From Pseudaquidulcibacter saccharophilus (GTDB lineage: Bacteria; Pseudomonadota; Alphaproteobacteria; Caulobacterales; Aquidulcibacteraceae), in contig NZ_JAHWUS010000003.1 in NCBI RefSeq assembly GCF_019455445.1, positions 372,001-436,000 of the forward strand: a stretch of DNA of 64,000 nt. Reading direction: 5' to 3'. A model generated the notes under the pieces. The model was not told the DNA's origin and did not search any database. It was given only the letters and a program-made list of their open reading frames with translations. Of this stretch, positions 8,051-64,000 are shown one piece after another; the first letter of the stretch is position 1, and each line of letters starts with the position of its first letter. The translations under genes and the position numbers were made by a program.

Positions 8051-9260
8051 CAACGCTTTTGCAAATGCTGTTTCTGAAATCAAAGATGAAGGACGGTATC
8101 GCGTTTTCACCAATATCAGACGTTATAAAGGTAATTTCCCACACGCGCGTTATTATACGGACGCGGGCGTAAAGGATATTATCGTTTGGTGTTCAAATGA
8201 TTATTTGGGTCAGGGCCAGAATGATGAGGTTCTTGATGCAATGCGTGAGGCGCTTGATGATGTTGGCTCTGGTGCCGGCGGAACCCGCAATATTTCTGGT
8301 AACACCTATTACCATACTATGTTAGAACGTGAACTTGCGGACCTTCACCAAAAAGAAGCTGCATTGTTGTTTACATCTGGTTATGTTTCAAATGATGCGA
8401 CCTTGGCAACAATTGCCCGCATTCTTCCTGGCTGTATTATTTTCTCTGATGAATCAAATCATGCTTCAATGATTGAAGGTATTCGTCGTTCTGGCTGTGA
8501 AAAACGTATTTTCCGCCATAATGATGTTGCGCATTTGCGTTCATTGCTTGAAAAAGCGCCGCAATCTGCACCTAAATTGATTGCGTTTGAAAGCGTTTAT
8601 TCAATGGATGGCGACATGTCGCCAATGAAAGAATTCTTGGATCTTGCGGATGAGTTCAACGCAATGACCTATCTTGATGAGGTTCATGCCGTTGGTATGT
8701 ATGGCGAACACGGTGCCGGCGTTGCCGAGCGTGATGGCCTTATGCACCGCTTTGATATTATTGAAGGCACAATGGGAAAGGCGTTTGGCGTGATGGGGGG
8801 CTATATCACTGCCAACGCCACCATTATTGATGCTATTCGTTCTCTTGCGCCAGGTTTCATCTTTACAACTTCACTTGCACCAGTTCTGGCTGCGGGCGTT
8901 TTGAAAAGCGTGCAAATCTTGAAATCTGAAAAAGGTCGTGAGCTTCGCGCACAGCACCAACGTCAGGCACAATATTTAAAAGATGCGTTCCGCAATGCGG
9001 GTCTTCCGATTATGGAAACTTCAACCAGCCATATCGTGCCACTTTTTGTTGGCGATGCGGTTAAATGTAAACAGCTTTCTGATTTGTTGCTTGAAGAATA
9101 TGATATTTATGTGCAGCCGATTAATTTCCCAACCGTTCCACGCGGTACGGAAAGATTGCGCTTTACCCCAACCCCACTTCACACTGATGAATTGTGCGAT
9201 GAGTTGGTTCGCAAAGTATCAGAAGCCTTTGGTCGTTTGAAAATTGCCAAGGCGGCTTAA
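8040..9260 (+). CDS. hemA: 5-aminolevulinate synthase
   Basis: This PLP enzyme condenses glycine and succinyl-CoA to 5-aminolevulinate, the first step of the C4 (Shemin) haem pathway typical of alphaproteobacteria. The 406-residue product is full length. It shows the glycine-rich [12 protein letters not shown] (77-88), the PLP-contacting YLDEVHAVG (211-219) and the Schiff-base lysine K247 in EGTMGKAFG. The ATG at 8040 is the natural N-terminus, although its SD is separated by a hairpin (see the leader entry). Its substrate glycine can come from glyA, encoded 1.7 kb downstream. hemB and hemF are also in the window but not adjacent. Confidence 0.97.
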
Positions 9261-9303
9261 ATAATTCTTTTTAATAAGAAATATCTATGTTAAGCTCGCG
9301 TCT

Positions 9304-9489
9304 ATGAATGATAGGCGCGAGTTTTATTTTGAATTTGTGAACATTGGTAATTATACCCAAGTTCGGGCGGTCGATTCTTTGACTGGTCTTGAGGTTGCGG
9401 TAACGACTCCTGCGAATACTGCACGTGGGCACCAGATGGAACTTGCCAAAAGAAAATTACTTATGATGCTCGAAAAACGGGGCGTTTAA
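9304..9489 (+). CDS. DUF6898-family small protein
   Basis: The 61-residue product (MNDRREFYFEFVNIGNYTQV...) matches the pattern of short alphaproteobacterial DUF6898 proteins: an N-terminal FEFVNIGN..QVRAVDSLTG.EV segment and a C-terminal basic helix AKRKLLMMLEKR. Its function is unknown. It follows hemA by 43 bp in the same direction and may be transcribed with it. No signal peptide or membrane segment is present, so it is likely cytosolic. Confidence 0.75.
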   Translation: MNDRREFYFEFVNIGNYTQVRAVDSLTGLEVAVTTPANTARGHQMELAKRKLLMMLEKRGV

Positions 9490-9680
9490 TACCATAAAAG
9501 GTGTGACGATTTGCCGTGTTTAAAAAGCAATATTTACGCATCCTAATAATAGAATATTCTTGTAACATTTGCTAAAAAATTACCAAGCCTTCTGCCTATT
9601 TGAAGACTGTTCAATGCATGGCTAAGAGAGATTTTCACGTTTCGGCAAACCTTGGCCATTGCTTTAATGGAGGTTTGACT

Positions 9681-10037
9681 ATGAGAAAAATGCTTATCCC
9701 CGCAGCAGCTATTTTATTATTCGCCATTCCGGCAATCGCAGGTGATGAAACCGGAAATTGGAAGCGTCCTAATGGCGACATTGTCGAGGTAAAAGTTGTA
9801 AATAATGGCTTATTTTGCAAAATTACCAAAGGCAAAAAGGTCGGCTTTGAAATGTGCCACGGTATGAAAACCACCGGCCCAAATGTATGGAAAGGAAAGG
9901 GCATGAAGCACCCTTCAATGCCTGGCTTCATGACATTTAATGGAACGGTCACAATAAATCAGAGCAAACTTGAAATAAAAGGATGCGTTGCCGGAGACGG
10001 TGTCTGCGACAAGGAAGTTTGGTCCAAAGTAAATTAG
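9681..10037 (+). CDS. Small exported protein, DUF2147-like
   Basis: I start it at the ATG at 9681, preceded by ATGGAGGT, giving 118 residues; a longer reading from 9600 has no ribosome-binding site and would place the signal peptide internally. The N-terminus MRKMLIPAAAILLFAIPAIAG is a Sec signal. The mature protein begins GDETGNWKRPNGDIVEV and contains FCKITKGKKVGFEM and IKGCVAGDGVCDKEVW, resembling the small secreted DUF2147 beta-barrel proteins that often begin with a G.W..P.g..v.i pattern. Four cysteines could form disulfides in the periplasm. The role is unknown. Confidence 0.75.
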   Translation: MRKMLIPAAAILLFAIPAIAGDETGNWKRPNGDIVEVKVVNNGLFCKITKGKKVGFEMCHGMKTTGPNVWKGKGMKHPSMPGFMTFNGTVTINQSKLEIKGCVAGDGVCDKEVWSKVN

Positions 10038-10042
10038 GAAAT

Positions 10043-10072
10043 AAAAAAGGGTGGCAATGCCACCCTTTTTTG
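10043..10072. terminator. Bidirectional terminator between the DUF2147-like gene and mucR
   Basis: AAAAAAGGGTGGC-AAT-GCCACCCTTTTTT is a strong stem with A- and T-runs on both sides. It lies between two convergent genes and can serve both. Confidence 0.9.
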
Positions 10073-10076
10073 AATA

Positions 10077-10496
10077 TTATTTGCCGCGAACACCGCGCCC
10101 AAGGCCAATCTTCTTGGCAAAGTTTGAACGTTTTTCAGCATAGTTTGGTGCAACCATTGGATAATCAGCAGGCAAACCCCAACGCTTGCGATAATCTTCT
10201 GGGCTAAGGCCATAGTTTGAACGTAGGTAACGTTTCAACATTTTAAGCTTTTTACCATCTTCAAGGCAGATAATGTAATCGTCTGTAACAGATTTATTGA
10301 TGCTTATTGCCGGTTTTAACTTATCACCACTTTTATCGCTTTCGACATCTAATTCGCTGCTAAGCGCTTTTTTAACTGATGCGATAAGCGTAGGAATGGC
10401 ATCCATTGAAACAGGATTTGCGCCGACATATGCGGCAACGATGGTCGTCGTCATGTCCAACAATTCCAGTTTCTGGTTTGTTTTAGTTTCTGTCAT
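10077..10496 (-). CDS. mucR: MucR/Ros-family zinc-finger transcriptional regulator
   Basis: MucR/Ros proteins are alphaproteobacterial repressors that bind AT-rich promoters and control exopolysaccharide, motility and envelope genes. The protein, 139 residues from the ATG at 10496, has the N-terminal MTTTIVAAYVGANPV segment typical of MucR, then CLEDGKKLKMLKRYLRSNYGLSPEDYRKRWGLPADYPMVAP in two adjoining blocks, the family signature. In the finger the second zinc Cys is absent, as in MucR proteins whose pattern begins CLEDGK. GAGGGA precedes this start; the reading from 10517 has no SD. It could regulate envelope genes elsewhere in the window, which is inference. Confidence 0.93.
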   Translation of the reverse strand: MTETKTNQKLELLDMTTTIVAAYVGANPVSMDAIPTLIASVKKALSSELDVESDKSGDKLKPAISINKSVTDDYIICLEDGKKLKMLKRYLRSNYGLSPEDYRKRWGLPADYPMVAPNYAEKRSNFAKKIGLGRGVRGK

Positions 10497-10952
10497 ATTT
10501 CCCTCAACAAAATACACGATAGATTTGGAGGAAGTCCAAATCCATTAACCCCATAAATATGAAAAAATCTTATCTAATTATATTTCTGTTCTTGAACGCA
10601 GCATACAATAAAAAAATTGCACACCCACATATTTTGTGTTGCGACAAAGATAAGCTTCTCTATTTGACTTGAATGACTAAGACATAAATAAGTTACCAAC
10701 AAGTATAATTATCAGTTAAATATTTAATATATTAATCAATTCGTTAATCGAGGCGGAATGTAAAACAAATTTTTATTCTGTAAATAGGGTAATTAGAAAA
10801 AGTTTGCAAAAAACAATGAAAAACGAAAATAAATCTTGTTTATTCTGGCTATAACGCTATTAGAGGGGCGATTTGTATCAAAGGCTGCGTGCCTTTTACA
10901 TGGTTCTGAGAGGGTTTTCACGAATCCACGTTAATTTCAGGGGATAGTTAAA
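10497..10952. other. 456-bp divergent regulatory region between mucR and glyA
   Basis: No gene is seen. The region is very AT-rich near mucR, as expected for a MucR autoregulatory target. On the glyA side it holds a leader of about 100 nt with a hairpin AAAGGC-TGCGT-GCCTTT (10880-10896). I compared it by eye with glycine, SAM and THF riboswitch patterns and could not assign it. AGGGGAT lies 8-9 nt before the glyA TTG. Confidence 0.5.
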
Positions 10953-12242
10953 TTGTCATCATATATTTCAGACGAACTGAACGGTTTTTTCTCTGCGGAT
11001 CTTGCGCAAAGAGATAAGGATATTTTCACAGCAATCGAACAAGAGGCACACCGCCAACAAGAAGGTATCGAGCTGATTGCATCTGAAAATATTGTTTCAA
11101 AAGCAGTTTTAGAGGCTCAAGGCTCGGTTCTTACTAATAAATATGCTGAAGGCTATCCGGGTAAACGCTATTATGGCGGTTGCGAATGTGTTGATATTGT
11201 TGAAAATATTGCCATCGAACGTGCAAAGCAATTGTTCAATGCCCAATATGCAAACGTACAGCCGCATTCAGGTTCACAAGCAAACCAATCTGTATTCATG
11301 TCGCTATTAAAACCTGGTGATACTTTTATGGGGCTTGATTTGGCGGCCGGTGGTCACCTTACCCACGGTTCAAAAGTTAACCAGTCTGGTAAATGGTTTA
11401 ATGTTGTTTCTTATGGTGTTCGTGAAGATAATCATTTGATTGATTATGACAAAGTTCTTGAGACCGCAAAAGAAGCAAAACCAAAACTTATTATTGCTGG
11501 TGGTTCTGCATATCCTCGTACAATTGATTTCAAAAAATTCCGTGAGATTGCCGATGAAGTTGGCGCTTTCTTCATGGTTGATATGGCACACTTTGCTGGT
11601 CTTGTTGCCGGTGGTGCGCATGCCAACCCGCTTGAATATGCACATGTTGTAACCACAACAACCCACAAAACCCTTCGTGGTCCACGTGGCGGTATGGTGC
11701 TTTCAAATGATTTAGATATTGGCAAGAAAATCAATTCTGCAATCTTCCCAGGTATCCAAGGTGGTCCATTGATGCACGTAATTGCCGCCAAAGCAGTCGC
11801 ATTTGGTGAAGCGTTGCAGCCATCATTCAAAACCTATGCTAAAAATGTGGTTGAAAATGCGGCAATCCTTGCGTCAACCATCAAAGAAGGTGGCTATGAT
11901 TTGGTTTCCGGTGGCACCGATACCCACGTTGTTTTGGTTGACTTGCGCCCTAAATCACTAACTGGTCGTGATGCTGAAAACGCGCTTGGTCGTGTAAATC
12001 TAACTTGTAACAAAAATGGTGTGCCGTTTGATTCTGCGCCGCCAACTGTTACATCTGGTATTCGTTTGGGTTCTCCTGCTGGTACTTCGCGTGGGCTTGG
12101 TAAAGATGAGTTTAAATTCATCGGTCAAAAAATCGTTGAAGTGTTAGATGGCTTGGTAAATTCACCAGAAGGTGATAAAGCTATTGAAGCGAAAGTTAAG
12201 CAGGAAGTTGAGGCACTTTGCCAAAAATTCCCAATCTATTGA
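10953..12242 (+). CDS. glyA: Serine hydroxymethyltransferase
   Basis: GlyA interconverts serine and glycine with transfer of a one-carbon unit to tetrahydrofolate, supplying C1 units for purines and thymidylate and glycine for HemA. The 429-residue product shows [13 protein letters not shown] (40-52), the tyrosine motif [16 protein letters not shown] (63-78) and the PLP lysine K239 in [14 protein letters not shown]. The start is a TTG with CAGGGGAT just upstream, and the N-terminus aligns with the family. It leads a same-strand run glyA-nrdR-ribD-ribE-ribH-nusB-thiL with short gaps, so it is probably the first gene of that operon. Confidence 0.97.
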
Positions 12243-12253
12243 TAGGATAAAAA

Positions 12254-12736
12254 TTGCATTGTCCGTTTTGTAAATGCACTGATACAATCGTTAAAGATAG
12301 CCGCCCCACAGAAGACGGGGCGGCAATAAGACGGCGCCGACAGTGTCCGGAGTGTGATGCCCGTTTCACAACGTTTGAACGCGTGCAAATGCGCGAATTA
12401 AAAGTTATCAAACGTGATGGAACCAAAGAAGTCTTTTCCTATGACAAGCTTCATAAATCATTGTCGATTGCCCTTAGAAAACGTGAAATTTCTGATGAAA
12501 CCCTCGACAAGCTGATTAATTCCATTAGCCGTGAACTTGAAAAAACTGGCGAGAGTGAGTTTTCAACTACGGTTGTGGGCGAATATGTCATGAAGGCATT
12601 GGCGCAAACCGATCCTGTTGGTTATGTGCGTTATGCTTCGGTATATCGTGATTTTTCTAAACCAGAAGATTTTAATCGTTTTATTGAAGATGAATTGAAA
12701 CACGTCCTTGAACAGGATAAAACGCCTGCAAAATAA
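12254..12736 (+). CDS. nrdR: Transcriptional repressor NrdR
   Basis: NrdR represses ribonucleotide reductase genes in response to ATP/dATP. The N-terminal zinc ribbon has C3, C6, C31 and C34 (HCPFC... and QCPEC), followed by RFTTFER and an ATP-cone domain beginning VIKRDGTKEVFSYDKLHKSL. The start is a TTG 11 bp after the glyA stop. The 160-residue length is usual. The glyA-nrdR-rib order is common in alphaproteobacteria. Confidence 0.96.
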   Translation: MHCPFCKCTDTIVKDSRPTEDGAAIRRRRQCPECDARFTTFERVQMRELKVIKRDGTKEVFSYDKLHKSLSIALRKREISDETLDKLINSISRELEKTGESEFSTTVVGEYVMKALAQTDPVGYVRYASVYRDFSKPEDFNRFIEDELKHVLEQDKTPAK

Positions 12737-12752
12737 TTAAATTGGCTAAATA

Positions 12753-13415
12753 ATGCGCCCAAAAATTTATCTTAAACTGGCGACGTCACTTGACGGTAAA
12801 ATTGCGCTTAAAAACGGGCAAAGCAAATGGATTACCAATGAAAAATCGCGTGCCGATGTGCAAACATTGCGTGCAAATTCCGATGGTATTATTTGCGGAA
12901 TTGGAACGGTTTTAAAAGACAATCCCAATCTTAATATACGTGGGGTTGATTGTTTGCCTGCAAAAATGCCGGCGCGAATTATTTTTGATTCCAAACTTCA
13001 GACACCAAATGACTATAATATTGTAAATCAAGCCATTGGCGGAAAAACAATTATTTTCTTTGACAAAGATATTGCACAGAATGGCGAAAATCGATTTGGG
13101 GATAATGTGCAGCTTTATGGTATTGGGTGTGACGAATATGGGTTATCAATCCCACAAGCATTAGAAATTTTGGGTAATTTGGGGTTACGAAAACTAATGC
13201 TTGAAACTGGCGGCAGGCTTGCGGCAAGTTTTTTAAAACAATGCTTGGTTGATTATATATATTGGTTTTTTGCGCCGAAAATTATTGGCGGTGATGGGGT
13301 TGATGTTTTTGCCAATTTAGGTTTTGAAAACCTTGAACAAGTTATAAAATTGACGCAAATAAAACAAATTGAATTAGACGGCGACTTGTTGCGCGTTTTT
13401 GAGGTTAAGAAATAG
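12753..13415 (+). CDS. Riboflavin pyrimidine reductase domain protein (RibD C-terminal domain only)
   Basis: The 220-residue protein is the RibD_C (DHFR-like) reductase domain: RPKIYLKLATSLDGKIAL at the start, WITNEKSRADVQTLRANSD..ICGIGTVLKDNP, and RKLMLETGGRLAASFL. It would reduce 5-amino-6-ribosylamino-uracil phosphate using NADPH. The usual N-terminal deaminase domain (HAE and PCxxC zinc motifs) is missing; only 16 bp separate this gene from nrdR, so it was not missed upstream. The deaminase must be encoded elsewhere if the pathway is complete. The gene ends by overlapping ribE by one base. Confidence 0.88.
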   Translation: MRPKIYLKLATSLDGKIALKNGQSKWITNEKSRADVQTLRANSDGIICGIGTVLKDNPNLNIRGVDCLPAKMPARIIFDSKLQTPNDYNIVNQAIGGKTIIFFDKDIAQNGENRFGDNVQLYGIGCDEYGLSIPQALEILGNLGLRKLMLETGGRLAASFLKQCLVDYIYWFFAPKIIGGDGVDVFANLGFENLEQVIKLTQIKQIELDGDLLRVFEVKK

Positions 13416-14041
13416 TGTTTACCGGAATTATTGTTGCCCAAGGCGAATTAAAAAATATCGAAAATCTTGAAGGCGATAGGATTTTTACTTTTAATGGTGA
13501 AATCCCATTGTCTGCCTTAACGCTTGGGGCATCGGTTTGCCATAATGGAACTTGTCTAACCATCATTGAGGCCGGGCAGGTAAGTGGCGCCCAAAATTAT
13601 TGGAAAGTGCAAATTTCCGGTGAAACCATTGCCAAAACCACTTTGGGCGATTGGAAAATTGGTGACAAAGTCAATCTTGAACCAAGTTTGAAAATCGGCG
13701 ATGAATTAGGTGGCCATATTGTTTCGGGCCATGTTGATGGTGTTGGCTATATCGAAAGCATAACAAATGATGCCGAAAGCCATGTTATTATTGCCTCTGC
13801 CCCCAAAGAATTAATGCCATTGATTGCCAAAAAGGGATCCATTGCATTTGATGGTATTTCGCTTACGGTAAATGATGTAAGTGATACTAATTTTACATTA
13901 AACATAATACCGCATACTTGGGCGGTAACAAATATGTCGCAATCTTTTATTGGCAGAAAAATCAACCTAGAAATTGACCCTCTGGCACGATATGTTGATA
14001 GATGGTTGAGCTTTGGTAACAAAAGCAATAAAGACAAGTGA
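13415..14041 (+). CDS. ribE: Riboflavin synthase alpha chain
   Basis: This enzyme dismutates two 6,7-dimethyl-8-ribityllumazines into riboflavin and a pyrimidine that LumS recycles. Two lumazine-binding domains are seen: the first begins MFTGIIVAQG and has SVCHNGTCLTI; the second follows GGHIVSGHVDGVGYI (about 97-110) with SIAFDGISLTVNDV. The GTG start at 13415 shares its first base with the upstream stop codon (TAGTG), which implies translational coupling. The 208 residues are a normal length. ribH follows after 12 bp. Confidence 0.95.
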   Translation: MFTGIIVAQGELKNIENLEGDRIFTFNGEIPLSALTLGASVCHNGTCLTIIEAGQVSGAQNYWKVQISGETIAKTTLGDWKIGDKVNLEPSLKIGDELGGHIVSGHVDGVGYIESITNDAESHVIIASAPKELMPLIAKKGSIAFDGISLTVNDVSDTNFTLNIIPHTWAVTNMSQSFIGRKINLEIDPLARYVDRWLSFGNKSNKDK

Positions 14042-60647: not shown

Positions 60648-61313
60648 TTAGTTTTTGGGCTGTAAATTGTTGTTTATCATGTCAATCACTGCGTCTGGAA
60701 CGGTGGTTTTATCTGGTTGCGGCGTTTCTTGTGGCTGATTTTGGCCTGCGATATAAGTTTGTGCAACCGCCGCTGCGGCAAGGGCCTCAATTTCATTTGC
60801 GGAAAATGCCTTTTGCGCGGTTTTATTGGCATCTTTTGAAAGTGAGATATTGTTTTCTTTTGCCTGACTTAGTTCTTGGTTATCAATATTTATTTCGGGG
60901 CGCATTGCATTTTCAAATTCGCTGGCACGTTTTTCAATTGGGTTTTTGCATGCTGTTGTAACGTTACTGGTTTTATCATTATCACATGCGTCTTTGCCTG
61001 TTGGCTGTTTAATAACAACATTATTGGGATCTTTGGGAAGTATTGCGGGGTTTGGCTCGACAAGTTTTTTTGAATTTGATTTGGAGACTTGCTTTGCAAT
61101 TATTTCGTTTTGGGTTTCTTTTGGAACCGTAATAATTATAGGCTCGGCAGTTTTTGTGGCACTAAGCCCAGGTTGTTCAAAAATAACGTTATTGGTTGGT
61201 TTATTTCCGATTTGGTCAATGTCGGGGGTTTTTGTTTGCGCATTAGCATAAATAGGCATTGTGCAAACTATGCCTATTATAATTATGGATTTTTGTATTT
61301 GATAATTGCCCAT
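60648..61313 (-). CDS. Exported protein of unknown function in the curlin locus
   Basis: The 221-residue protein has a signal peptide (IQKSIIIIGIVCTMPIYANA, cleavage near ANA) and a low-complexity, Asn/Lys/Thr/Pro-rich mature part (KTPDIDQIGNKPTNNVIF, DPNNVVIKQPTGKD), one Cys pair (DACDND, TACKN), and a helical C-terminal segment AFSANEIEALAAAAVAQTY ending with NNLQPKN. It starts 10 bp after the curlin-repeat gene and so belongs to the same operon. It has no curlin repeats; it could be a fibre assembly, anchoring or secretion factor. I do not recognise it. Confidence 0.7.
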   Translation of the reverse strand: MGNYQIQKSIIIIGIVCTMPIYANAQTKTPDIDQIGNKPTNNVIFEQPGLSATKTAEPIIITVPKETQNEIIAKQVSKSNSKKLVEPNPAILPKDPNNVVIKQPTGKDACDNDKTSNVTTACKNPIEKRASEFENAMRPEINIDNQELSQAKENNISLSKDANKTAQKAFSANEIEALAAAAVAQTYIAGQNQPQETPQPDKTTVPDAVIDMINNNLQPKN

Positions 61314-61323
61314 TTTATAGCCT

Positions 61324-61959
61324 TTAGCTACCGTTTTGGATTATTGTTGCACTTGCGCCACCGGTTTGCTTAATGAATAAGTCTGGGTTTGCATCACCAT
61401 TTTGTTGCCAATTAAGGCTATTGATGCCGCCGGCTTGTTCGGCGCTTATGGCATTGTGGTTGCCATCTTGGCTAAGGTTGGCCTGATTATCGTTTCCATC
61501 TTGTTTAAGGTCGATTTTATTGTCATCACCGCTTTGGCTTACGTTCGATAAATTATTATCACCATTTTGGGTGATTTTAGCGATATTGGGCATAATTACG
61601 CCTCCTGATTGATTAAGGTTTGCAACATTAAATTCGCCTTTTTGGGCAATTTCAGCAATATTGCTTAGGTCGTCATAATTTGCGCCGGTTTGCGAAACAT
61701 TGGCGACATTATTGTTTCCAGCTTGTGTAATAATGCTTTTATTTTTTCCGCCAGACTGATTTATTATCGAGATATTTTTATTCCCTGATTGTTTTACATT
61801 TGCCAAGGATCCGTTTCCGCTTTGATTGATTATTGTTTTGTTGGAAACCTGCGGGATATAGGCAATGGATTGGGCTTGTATGCTCGTTGCAAGAAATGAA
61901 CCCGTAAAAATGCAAAGCAATGAGATATACGAACACATTATTTTGATATTGTTTTTCAT
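61324..61959 (-). CDS. Curlin-repeat protein (small, amyloid-fibre subunit candidate)
   Basis: From the ATG at 61959 the product is 211 residues; a reading from 61998 would start inside an intercistronic hairpin and lack a signal peptide at its N-terminus. After the signal peptide (CSYISLLCIFTGSFLATSIQA) come about 15 repeats of the curlin type: IINQSGNGSLANVKQSGNKN, QAGNNNVANVSQTG, QNGDNNLSNVSQSGDDN. The regular N..Q.G..N spacing forms the beta-solenoid amyloid of curli. It is likely exported to the surface with the larger paralogue upstream. Confidence 0.88.
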   Translation of the reverse strand: MKNNIKIMCSYISLLCIFTGSFLATSIQAQSIAYIPQVSNKTIINQSGNGSLANVKQSGNKNISIINQSGGKNKSIITQAGNNNVANVSQTGANYDDLSNIAEIAQKGEFNVANLNQSGGVIMPNIAKITQNGDNNLSNVSQSGDDNKIDLKQDGNDNQANLSQDGNHNAISAEQAGGINSLNWQQNGDANPDLFIKQTGGASATIIQNGS

Positions 61960-61985
61960 GATCTTTGCTTTCGTAAAAAAGAAAT

Positions 61986-62023
61986 CATTCCCCGGCATTG
62001 GGGCATTTGGGGGCCGGGGAATG
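61986..62023 (-). promoter_or_regulatory. Intercistronic hairpin between the two curlin genes
   Basis: CATTCCCCGGC (61986-61996) and GCCGGGGAATG (62013-62023) form a perfect 11-bp stem with a 16-nt loop. No T-run follows on the minus strand. It lies between the larger curlin gene's stop and the smaller one's ATG, where it could partly end transcription or protect the mRNA, setting the ratio of the two proteins. Confidence 0.6.
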
Positions 62024-62038
62024 TAGTATGTGTGTATT

Positions 62039-63316
62039 TTATTGGTTGATGTTGGCAGTATGTCCAGAACCAGACTGATTTACCCAAGAATATGAATAGT
62101 CAGTGGTTTGTGTCACATTTGCTGTATTGCCGTTACCGCTTTGAATAACGCTGGAATATCCCATGTCTGCAAGCTGGCTTACATTGGCAACTTGGTTGCT
62201 TCCAGATTGGTCAACTTCAGAATCGTTACCATCGCCATCTTGGAACACATTTGCAAGTTGGTTAAAGCCACGTTGTTTTAGGCGGCTGTCATTGCGGTCA
62301 CCGGTTTGGGTAACATGGGCAAATTGATCACCGTTCAATAGGCCAGAGCCATCTTGATCAATCAAAGATTCGTTGAAGTCACCCGATTGATTGACAGTTG
62401 CGACAATTGTTTTGCCAAGCACCGTTCCGCCAACCTGATTAACTTCACTGTAATTGTCATGACCAGATTGATCAACATAAGCATCTGGATAAGCACCGGT
62501 CAAATTGCTTGATTGGTGGACCACACTTGCGTTGAAAGTTCCGCTTTGGTTAACAATTGCACTTGCAAATTCGGCGGCCTGTGTAATGTCGCTTGAGTTG
62601 CTGTCACCAAGCTGGTTAACATGCGCTTCGTTATTGCCGCCAGCCTGCACAATTGAAGACAGGTTGAAATTACCCATCTGTGAGTTGGATGCAAGGTTAT
62701 TGCCTCCTGGAGGGGCGAATATAGCAGGGGTTCCAGTATTTTGCATAATCACAGAACGGTTGCCGATGGTTGCAGTTCCGGCATCACCCTGATTGATTGA
62801 TGCAGAGTTTCCGCCACTGTCGCCCGCACCGCCGCCTTGGCCAATTCTTGCTTCGTTGTTTTTAACATCAGCATTCCAAGGCATTGCGTTAGAGCGATTG
62901 TTGTTTTGGAAAATATTTGCGGTTTGTCCTGCTGCACTGCCTGATAATTGATCAATATAGGCAATGTTTTGAACGCCAGGGTTATAAGATGGGGTGTCGT
63001 CCTTTTGGCTAACATTTGCGGTGTTTTTCAAAGAGCCACCCTGATTAACGATTGCGGTGCCGCTGTTACCCAAAGCCTGATTGACATTGGTTAAATGGCC
63101 GCCAGTACCAGATTGGTTTACAACAGATGTGTTGTTTGCATTAACTGGTATATAGCCCGGTCTGCCAACTGCTGTTGGGGTAACGTTGCCATTGCCGCCA
63201 TTATCATAGTTTCCGAAATTGTTTCCTGACAAATCATTATCATTTGTCATACCTTGTGCCATTGCAGCAGTAGAAATCGCCGAGATGGCAAGTGTTGCCA
63301 GTAATAATCTACGCAT
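62039..63316 (-). CDS. Large curlin-repeat protein
   Basis: From the ATG at 63316 (AAGGAGAA upstream) the product is 425 residues with a signal peptide (MRRLLLATLAISAISTAAMA). A Asn/Gly-rich linker (GNNFGNYDNGGNGNVTP) precedes about 28 curlin-type repeats, such as VVNQSG, VNQLGDSNSSDITQ, VNQSGDFNESLIDQ, VTQTGDRNDSRLKQ, VFQDGDGNDSEVDQSGSNQ, ending with HTANINQ. It is more degenerate and longer than CsgA of E. coli (five repeats). It is a likely major or nucleating fibre protein. The next gene of the strand is the small paralogue. Confidence 0.88.
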   Translation of the reverse strand: MRRLLLATLAISAISTAAMAQGMTNDNDLSGNNFGNYDNGGNGNVTPTAVGRPGYIPVNANNTSVVNQSGTGGHLTNVNQALGNSGTAIVNQGGSLKNTANVSQKDDTPSYNPGVQNIAYIDQLSGSAAGQTANIFQNNNRSNAMPWNADVKNNEARIGQGGGAGDSGGNSASINQGDAGTATIGNRSVIMQNTGTPAIFAPPGGNNLASNSQMGNFNLSSIVQAGGNNEAHVNQLGDSNSSDITQAAEFASAIVNQSGTFNASVVHQSSNLTGAYPDAYVDQSGHDNYSEVNQVGGTVLGKTIVATVNQSGDFNESLIDQDGSGLLNGDQFAHVTQTGDRNDSRLKQRGFNQLANVFQDGDGNDSEVDQSGSNQVANVSQLADMGYSSVIQSGNGNTANVTQTTDYSYSWVNQSGSGHTANINQ

Positions 63317-63585
63317 TGTCTTCTCCTTATTATTGTTATCGCCTGTGCTCATACCCGTCCGTATGATCCAAAGGCTTCACCATATCCCAGCCGCCTTATT
63401 TAACGGTGCGATGTATAGACTTAAGTATAGTAAAGTAAAAATAGCAATTGTGTTTTATTGCGTAGATTAAAAACTAGGTAAAATTGCGTAATATTGCTAA
63501 TAATTATAGTATAGATACAAATATACGCGCCAATTATTACAATTATTGGCGTGGTATTAATTATGTTTATTGTAATTGTGCTGCC

Positions 63586-64000
63586 TTAGTATGTGGCAAC
63601 ATTTCTTTTTATTATAAGTTGGGGTGAATTGCTAACCCCAACTTTGGCAAGAATCTTGGCGCGGTGTACATCGACGGTACGGGGAGAAATATCCAAAACC
63701 CTTGCTATTTCCTTAGTTGACAGCCCGTTTGAAATTAATTCACAAACATCTTTCTCGCGTGCCGTCAGTCGGTCAAAAACATTTTCACGAATTTGCAGAT
63801 TGATTTTATCTTGAAGGGCATCAAGCCCATCAACCAGATGTTTCTCGCTAAATGGTTTGAAGACATAATCAACCGCCCCACTTTTTAAACAACAGACTGC
63901 AAATCTTGCGTCGTCATAACGTGAAACTATAAGCGTATTGATAAACATATTTTTATTTACCAATGGGGTTATATTTGTTTGTGGTCGCCCACTAATTTCA
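63586..64000 (-). CDS. FixJ/LuxR-type response regulator, 5' end cut by window end
   Basis: The reading frame is open from the window edge to a stop at 63586, so the start lies beyond 64000. The visible part begins within the receiver domain (TLIVSRYDDARFAVCCLKSG, AVDYVFKPFSEKHLVDGL), where KPF is the conserved receiver Lys/Pro; the phosphorylated Asp is outside the window. The LuxR helix-turn-helix follows (LTAREKDVCELISNGLSTKE, IARVLDISPRTVDVHRAKI). An internal TTG at 63963 is not the true start since the receiver fold extends upstream. Lying 270 bp from the curlin genes, it may control them as CsgD does, which is inference. Confidence 0.88.
   Translation of the reverse strand, partial: EISGRPQTNITPLVNKNMFINTLIVSRYDDARFAVCCLKSGAVDYVFKPFSEKHLVDGLDALQDKINLQIRENVFDRLTAREKDVCELISNGLSTKEIARVLDISPRTVDVHRAKILAKVGVSNSPQLIIKRNVATY

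Follow-up and report, generated by a model that had tools for sequence, protein, structure and literature searches.

The end of the window, as the whole 64,000-nucleotide stretch of DNA analysed here is called, belongs to a complete curli operon of the csgE-less alphaproteobacterial type, whose secretion genes lie just past the window edge and whose last gene encodes an exported protein of 221 residues designated C3, a label used both for this protein and for its family. The operon by itself is a regular representative of its class, and its novelty resides in C3, a conserved accessory family for which no description was found in the literature searched (subscription papers and preprints being outside the coverage). 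The window comes from a 598-kb contig in a genome of 2.84 Mb that is scored as 100% complete.

Organization of the curli operon and its regulator

Read 5' to 3' on the minus strand, the operon comprises csgF, csgG, a gene for a LuxR/FixJ-type regulator, curlin 1, curlin 2 and C3. The csgF gene (150 residues, window-equivalent positions 65136-65588; PF10614, E 2.2e-31) and the csgG gene (312 residues, 64211-65149; PF03783, E 3.8e-59) are intact and lie on the same strand directly upstream of the regulator, 0.2-1.6 kb past position 64000, and were therefore missed by the original prediction. The regulator gene (63586..64000 in the window, extending to window-equivalent 64173; 195 residues as a whole gene) is followed by the main curlin, curlin 1 (62039..63352; 437 residues as called; PF07012, E 2.4e-13), by curlin 2 in the CsgB position (61324..61998; 224 residues as called; PF07012, E 2.7e-16, and NCBIfam CsgB, E 1.4e-21) and, after a gap of about 10 bp, by the C3 open reading frame (60648..61313), which has a signal-peptide-like start. 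In 10 of the 23 relatives checked, the junction between the curlin 2-type gene and C3 is a 4-bp stop/start overlap. Of the components by which a curli (type VIII secretion) locus is recognized, curlin-repeat subunits with PF07012 in two ORFs, the CsgG secretion channel and CsgF were found. The prediction of two curlin-repeat proteins, a 221-residue exported protein and a LuxR/FixJ-type regulator on one strand agrees with both the ORFs and the PF07012 matches, and its remark that csgE, csgF and csgG are not visible holds for the window, with csgG and csgF present just outside and csgE not found in the genome.

A search for csgE with PF10627 gave no match in the whole 100%-complete genome, with the E. 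coli control being positive. This non-detection is not decisive for membership among curli loci, because csgE is reported missing from all Alphaproteobacteria by a survey of this system (PMC3521004). Likewise, neither NF041112 nor PF21112 revealed csgH in the genome, a result to be read with the finding that the CsgH of a relative scored below the cut-off, so that a diverged CsgH could escape. Compared with the E. coli curli or type VIII secretion system (csgBAC-csgDEFG), the operon has in common the curlin-repeat subunits, the CsgG channel, CsgF and a regulator of the LuxR/FixJ family. However, it differs in its arrangement on one strand in the order F-G-regulator-A-B-C3, in having no csgC in the operon and no csgE found in the genome, in its longer curlins and in the extra gene C3. 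With the alphaproteobacterial csgH curli operons, as described in PMC3521004 and PMC4838910, it shares the class, the lack of csgC and csgE and a small exported extra gene beside csgA/B, but csgH is undetected in the window genome and C3 is a different family, which in relatives is usually encoded just before csgH.

Judged from the sequence and from the nearest named relative found, Hyphomonadaceae bacterium UBA1933 of the same genus (CsgF 98% identical), curlin 1 likely starts at MRRLLL.., preceded by the Shine-Dalgarno sequence AGGAG, and is 425 residues long, while the likely start of curlin 2 at MKNNIK.. gives 211 residues. Counting of strand patterns in the mature proteins yields about 28 sites in curlin 1 and about 15 in curlin 2, as compared to 10-11 in E. 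coli CsgA. The latter has five repeats by the usual convention, by which curlin 1 has about 14 repeats and curlin 2 about 7.5. The figures of 28 and 15 originally put forward as repeats are hence right for strands, that is half repeats, and two-fold too high for repeats. Nor can the stress laid on the repeat number as unusual be upheld, since the more than 8,000 unique curlins of another survey (PMC10192328) range from 4 to 62 repeats, with peaks at 5, 7-8, 15 and 22, which places both window proteins in common classes.

The regulator has the HTH and receiver architecture of LuxR/FixJ proteins that is looked for in a CsgD-type regulator, with a GerE match (E 6.4e-18) and a partial receiver in the Pfam scan. 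It is closer to FixJ (E 1.7e-21) than to CsgD (E 1.2e-7) in the NCBIfam scan, and aligns with StyR over the whole length and with FixJ over the C-terminal part. It retains the candidate phospho-acceptor Asp and the KPF lysine and has lost one acidic-pocket residue (the second acidic residue). Its position in the operon makes it a candidate activator of the curlin genes. The sensor kinase that had been suggested as worth seeking did not turn up, there being no kinase gene within the 18 kb of surrounding sequence that was read. Of the operons that were compared, only those of the window's genus have a regulator gene placed between csgG and the curlin gene, and the nearest copy of the window's regulator among the loci is that of the sister genome (95%). 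LuxR-type relatives with about 35% identity occur near several Sphingomonadales csgF operons (L095, L096, L099, L102, L107, L118), some of them divergent from and close to csgF. These are possible counterparts of CsgD in a class said to be without csgD, or may reflect a general family. Between the regulator stop and curlin 1, an imperfect inverted repeat at 63528-63551 (CGCCAATTATTACAATTATTGGCG) could be a regulator site or the separator of two operon halves.

C3 is followed downstream by a tRNA-Phe gene, behind which lie dsbB, coq7 and an OmpA-like gene. In the sister genome UBA1933 (G018), a tyrosine-integrase-like gene with a DUF4102-type start stands directly after the C3-adjoining tRNA-Phe (L026, oriented about 9100-14000), at the place occupied by dsbB and coq7 in the window genome, which suggests that an element integrated at this tRNA-Phe of the sister genome. 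A second CsgG-domain protein (G000:C4:3128-3514, locus L008; E 1.8e-12) is encoded outside the curli operon and is possibly a holdfast-type HfaB.

The C3 family and its co-occurrence with csgF

Searching the GTDB family retrieved a homologue of 82% in the same genus and, in another genus, weak matches located 4-5 kb downstream of csgF; with the single query used in this first search, the Aquidulcibacter-type genomes gave only weak matches that were rescued by synteny. The csgF operons of that second genus encode, at the place of C3, an exported protein of 242 to 259 residues with the core C...C-x3-IETRSxEF...LSPEQRLL. Iteration of the profile over 80 named csgF loci and further fetched loci raised the family to 36 members, some of which are duplicate records of one genome. 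They come from Hyphomonadaceae, Caulobacteraceae (Brevundimonas), Sphingosinicella, Sphingomonas, Blastomonas, Novosphingobium and Sphingobium, and the family thus spans the curli operons of two orders, Caulobacterales and Sphingomonadales, with C3 directly after the CsgB-position curlin in the operons of relatives. Operons of this kind occur in Brevundimonas variabilis DSM 4737, Aquidulcibacter paucihalophilus TH1-2 and Blastomonas natatoria, among others. Plasmid p2 of Sphingomonas sp. NY01 (L184, 8737-9456) carries a short csgF-csgG-curlin-like-C3 operon, whose C3 is annotated as the hypothetical protein WP_342659252.1.

Because these loci had been picked by csgF, whole genomes were tested as well. 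Among 299 genomes of the order, 34 contain csgF, and all 12 strong matches to the C3 profile (E < 1e-27), one per genome, fall in csgF-positive genomes; four further matches (E > 0.001) are to parts of frames unrelated to C3 and seem to be fortuitous. The probability of 12/12 arising by chance is 6e-13 when counted by genome and 1.2e-4 when counted by genus (6/6 among 14/54), the latter being the fairer figure given the relatedness of the genomes. In the genus of the window, csgF and C3 are both present in two of five genomes and both absent from the other three, and in the second genus they are likewise present or absent jointly. A class-wide sample added no weight, its csgF genomes being too few (five matches, one below the cut-off), with C3 only in the window's own genome. 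By the original prediction's own standard, a 221-residue protein lying apart from curlin genes in the majority of genomes would speak against it; the 12 strong matches in csgF-positive genomes show the contrary. This co-occurrence, together with a literature search that returned no description, supports its proposal of a curli-dedicated partner outside the known csg genes; in their available parts, PMC3521004 and PMC10192328 do not mention C3.

Sequence features of C3 and of other last-position proteins

After a signal peptide of about residues 1-25, the N-terminal region of C3 is of low complexity and bears Q-motifs at Q34 (DIDQIG), Q47 (NVIFEQPG), Q75 (EIIAKQVS) and Q103 (NVVIKQPTG), and this half contains proline. 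Asp108, Cys110 and Cys122 do not vary among the 28 members aligned. No Pfam or NCBIfam entry matched the protein, including PF07012 for curlin subunits, NF041112 and PF21112 for CsgH, and the families of CsgE and CsgC, and the family profile had no match in the PDB. AlphaFold2 models from 28 and 27 sequences were of low confidence (pLDDT 58 and 60, pTM 0.21 and 0.26), for which reason a fold assignment was dropped; both have a disordered N-terminal half and helices behind the cysteines, and the model with pLDDT 58 predicts disorder at about 25-115 and helices at 120-191. In the comparison with the sister species, C3 has a dN/dS of 0.13, curlin 2 one of 0.08 and the other operon genes 0.04-0.05, and C3 is hence under purifying selection and yet evolves faster than any other gene in the operon.

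In Caulobacterales and Sphingomonadales, the last gene of most other csgF operons encodes an exported protein or a lipoprotein other than C3, 150-260 residues in length, and no such last-position protein was seen in the curli operons of Azospirillum and other Rhodospirillales. Sorting by eye gave four groups, namely a Sphingopyxis/Erythrobacter type with RGQQPTPELIAREIGPD, a Henriciella/Hyphomonas type with a wide Cys pair, a Parvularcula type and a second Hyphomonas type. Homology among the C-terminal parts of types I-V is unclaimed, the best probability in profile comparison being 31%. A lipobox is present in 8/28 other-type proteins, and none was found in the C3 type (type I, window protein included).

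Common to C3 and the other last-position types is an N-terminal motif, [VIM]-[DE]-Q-[ILV]-[SG], spaced by about 13 residues, with V/I/M enriched at -2, D/E at -1 and S/G at +2 around the Q. In 16 non-redundant C3 members, 23 of 40 Q-[ILV] spacings are of 11-14 residues as compared to 4.7 +/- 2.0 under uniform placement. The other types, from position-selected and mutually related operons, were scored with the motif defined beforehand on the C3 set and hence provide a fair independent test; they contain 74 motifs versus 23.6 by shuffling, and 18 spacings of 11-14 residues versus 0.9 expected. The original description of the 221-residue protein as one without repeats is thus valid for curlin repeats and does not extend to this short recurrent Q-[ILV] motif in the N-terminal half of the family. 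An interpretation of the N-terminal region of C3 as degenerate curlin half-repeats was rejected, as the matrix scan gave 6 sites versus 1.6 +/- 1.3 in shuffles, mostly from one other type; what is left standing is a phi-x-Q-phi pattern with a 13-residue period.

Possible roles of C3

At confidence just short of even, C3 is regarded as an accessory factor dedicated to curli, and most likely as an adaptor associated with the cell envelope that serves in assembly or anchoring. Such a protein would cross the inner membrane by its export signal, and several copies of the Q-motif in its flexible N-terminal half may attach as short strands, at several points, to curlin subunits or to the end of the growing fibre, while a helical C-terminal module, probably closed by a disulphide, would keep the complex close to CsgG/CsgF at the outer membrane and could be lipid-anchored in some relatives of other types. 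C3 would in this manner act alongside the CsgB-like curlin. Binding to curlin is a conjecture, since the motif fails the curlin matrix and profile comparison of C3 with CsgB-like proteins revealed nothing shared beyond the signal region. The lipobox in other-type proteins weakly favours an envelope anchor. Like CsgB, the minor curlin, and CsgF, whose part in nucleation and anchoring is played at the cell surface, C3 is a small exported protein, but it has neither curlin repeats nor the N-terminal NPxFGGxxF segment of CsgF. It also resembles CsgI (YccT) of E. coli, described in PMC10002515 as an inhibitor of curli formation acting on CsgA polymerisation, in being a non-classical protein, but differs in length and composition and is tied to it by no Pfam match.

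The main rival to an adaptor or anchor is a CsgE-like escort: in the periplasm, C3 would serve as an escort or as a chaperone against aggregation and would replace CsgE, and here CsgH too, by keeping curlins unfolded through the Q-motifs and delivering them to CsgG. Without CsgE, which is lacking here and reported absent from all Alphaproteobacteria (PMC3521004), some protein should do its work, and C3 would suit by its export signal, its predicted disorder and its confinement to csgF operons, in a genome where csgH likewise is undetected. However, similarity to CsgE, CsgC or CsgH is missing in the Pfam and NCBIfam scans, many relatives carry C3 along with a CsgH-like gene, so that C3 is not simply a CsgH substitute, and lipidated relatives suit an anchor better, though a periplasm-facing lipoprotein also fits; an escort function is possible and rather doubtful. 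It is improbable that C3 serves as a matrix protein or adhesin on the fibre, decorating curli or coupling them to other surface material with variable C-terminal modules for species-specific binding: the N-terminal motif common to the types, the C-terminal modules differing by lineage and the fastest evolution within the operon agree with such a function, but the modules are short, and the two cysteines invariant across type I look more like a structural element than like a binding surface on which selection shifts. That C3 is a divergent curlin subunit, a CsgB slowly decaying and without a function of its own, is very improbable despite the adjoining CsgB-like gene and the resemblance of the phi-x-Q pattern (NVIFEQ, NVVIKQ) to a curlin strand, given the missing PF07012 match, the failed matrix test, the purifying selection, the invariant cysteines and the presence of C3 in two orders.

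Beyond the adaptor proposed for C3 itself, it is conceivable, as a clearly minority expectation, that one unrecognised core component is common to the csgF operons of Caulobacterales and Sphingomonadales, namely an exported protein or lipoprotein encoded by the last gene, in which a docking region of repeated [VIM]-[DE]-Q-[ILV]-[SG] would be combined with an interchangeable C-terminal module, replacing the function of CsgE or anchoring the fibre. The 2012 survey left curli assembly without CsgE in Alphaproteobacteria as an open matter, in which alternative proteins must do the work (PMC3521004). Found only with csgF operons and directly behind the curlins, C3 is a concrete and testable candidate for CsgE-less curli assembly, and its family gives a handle for annotating hypothetical proteins such as the one on the Sphingomonas plasmid.
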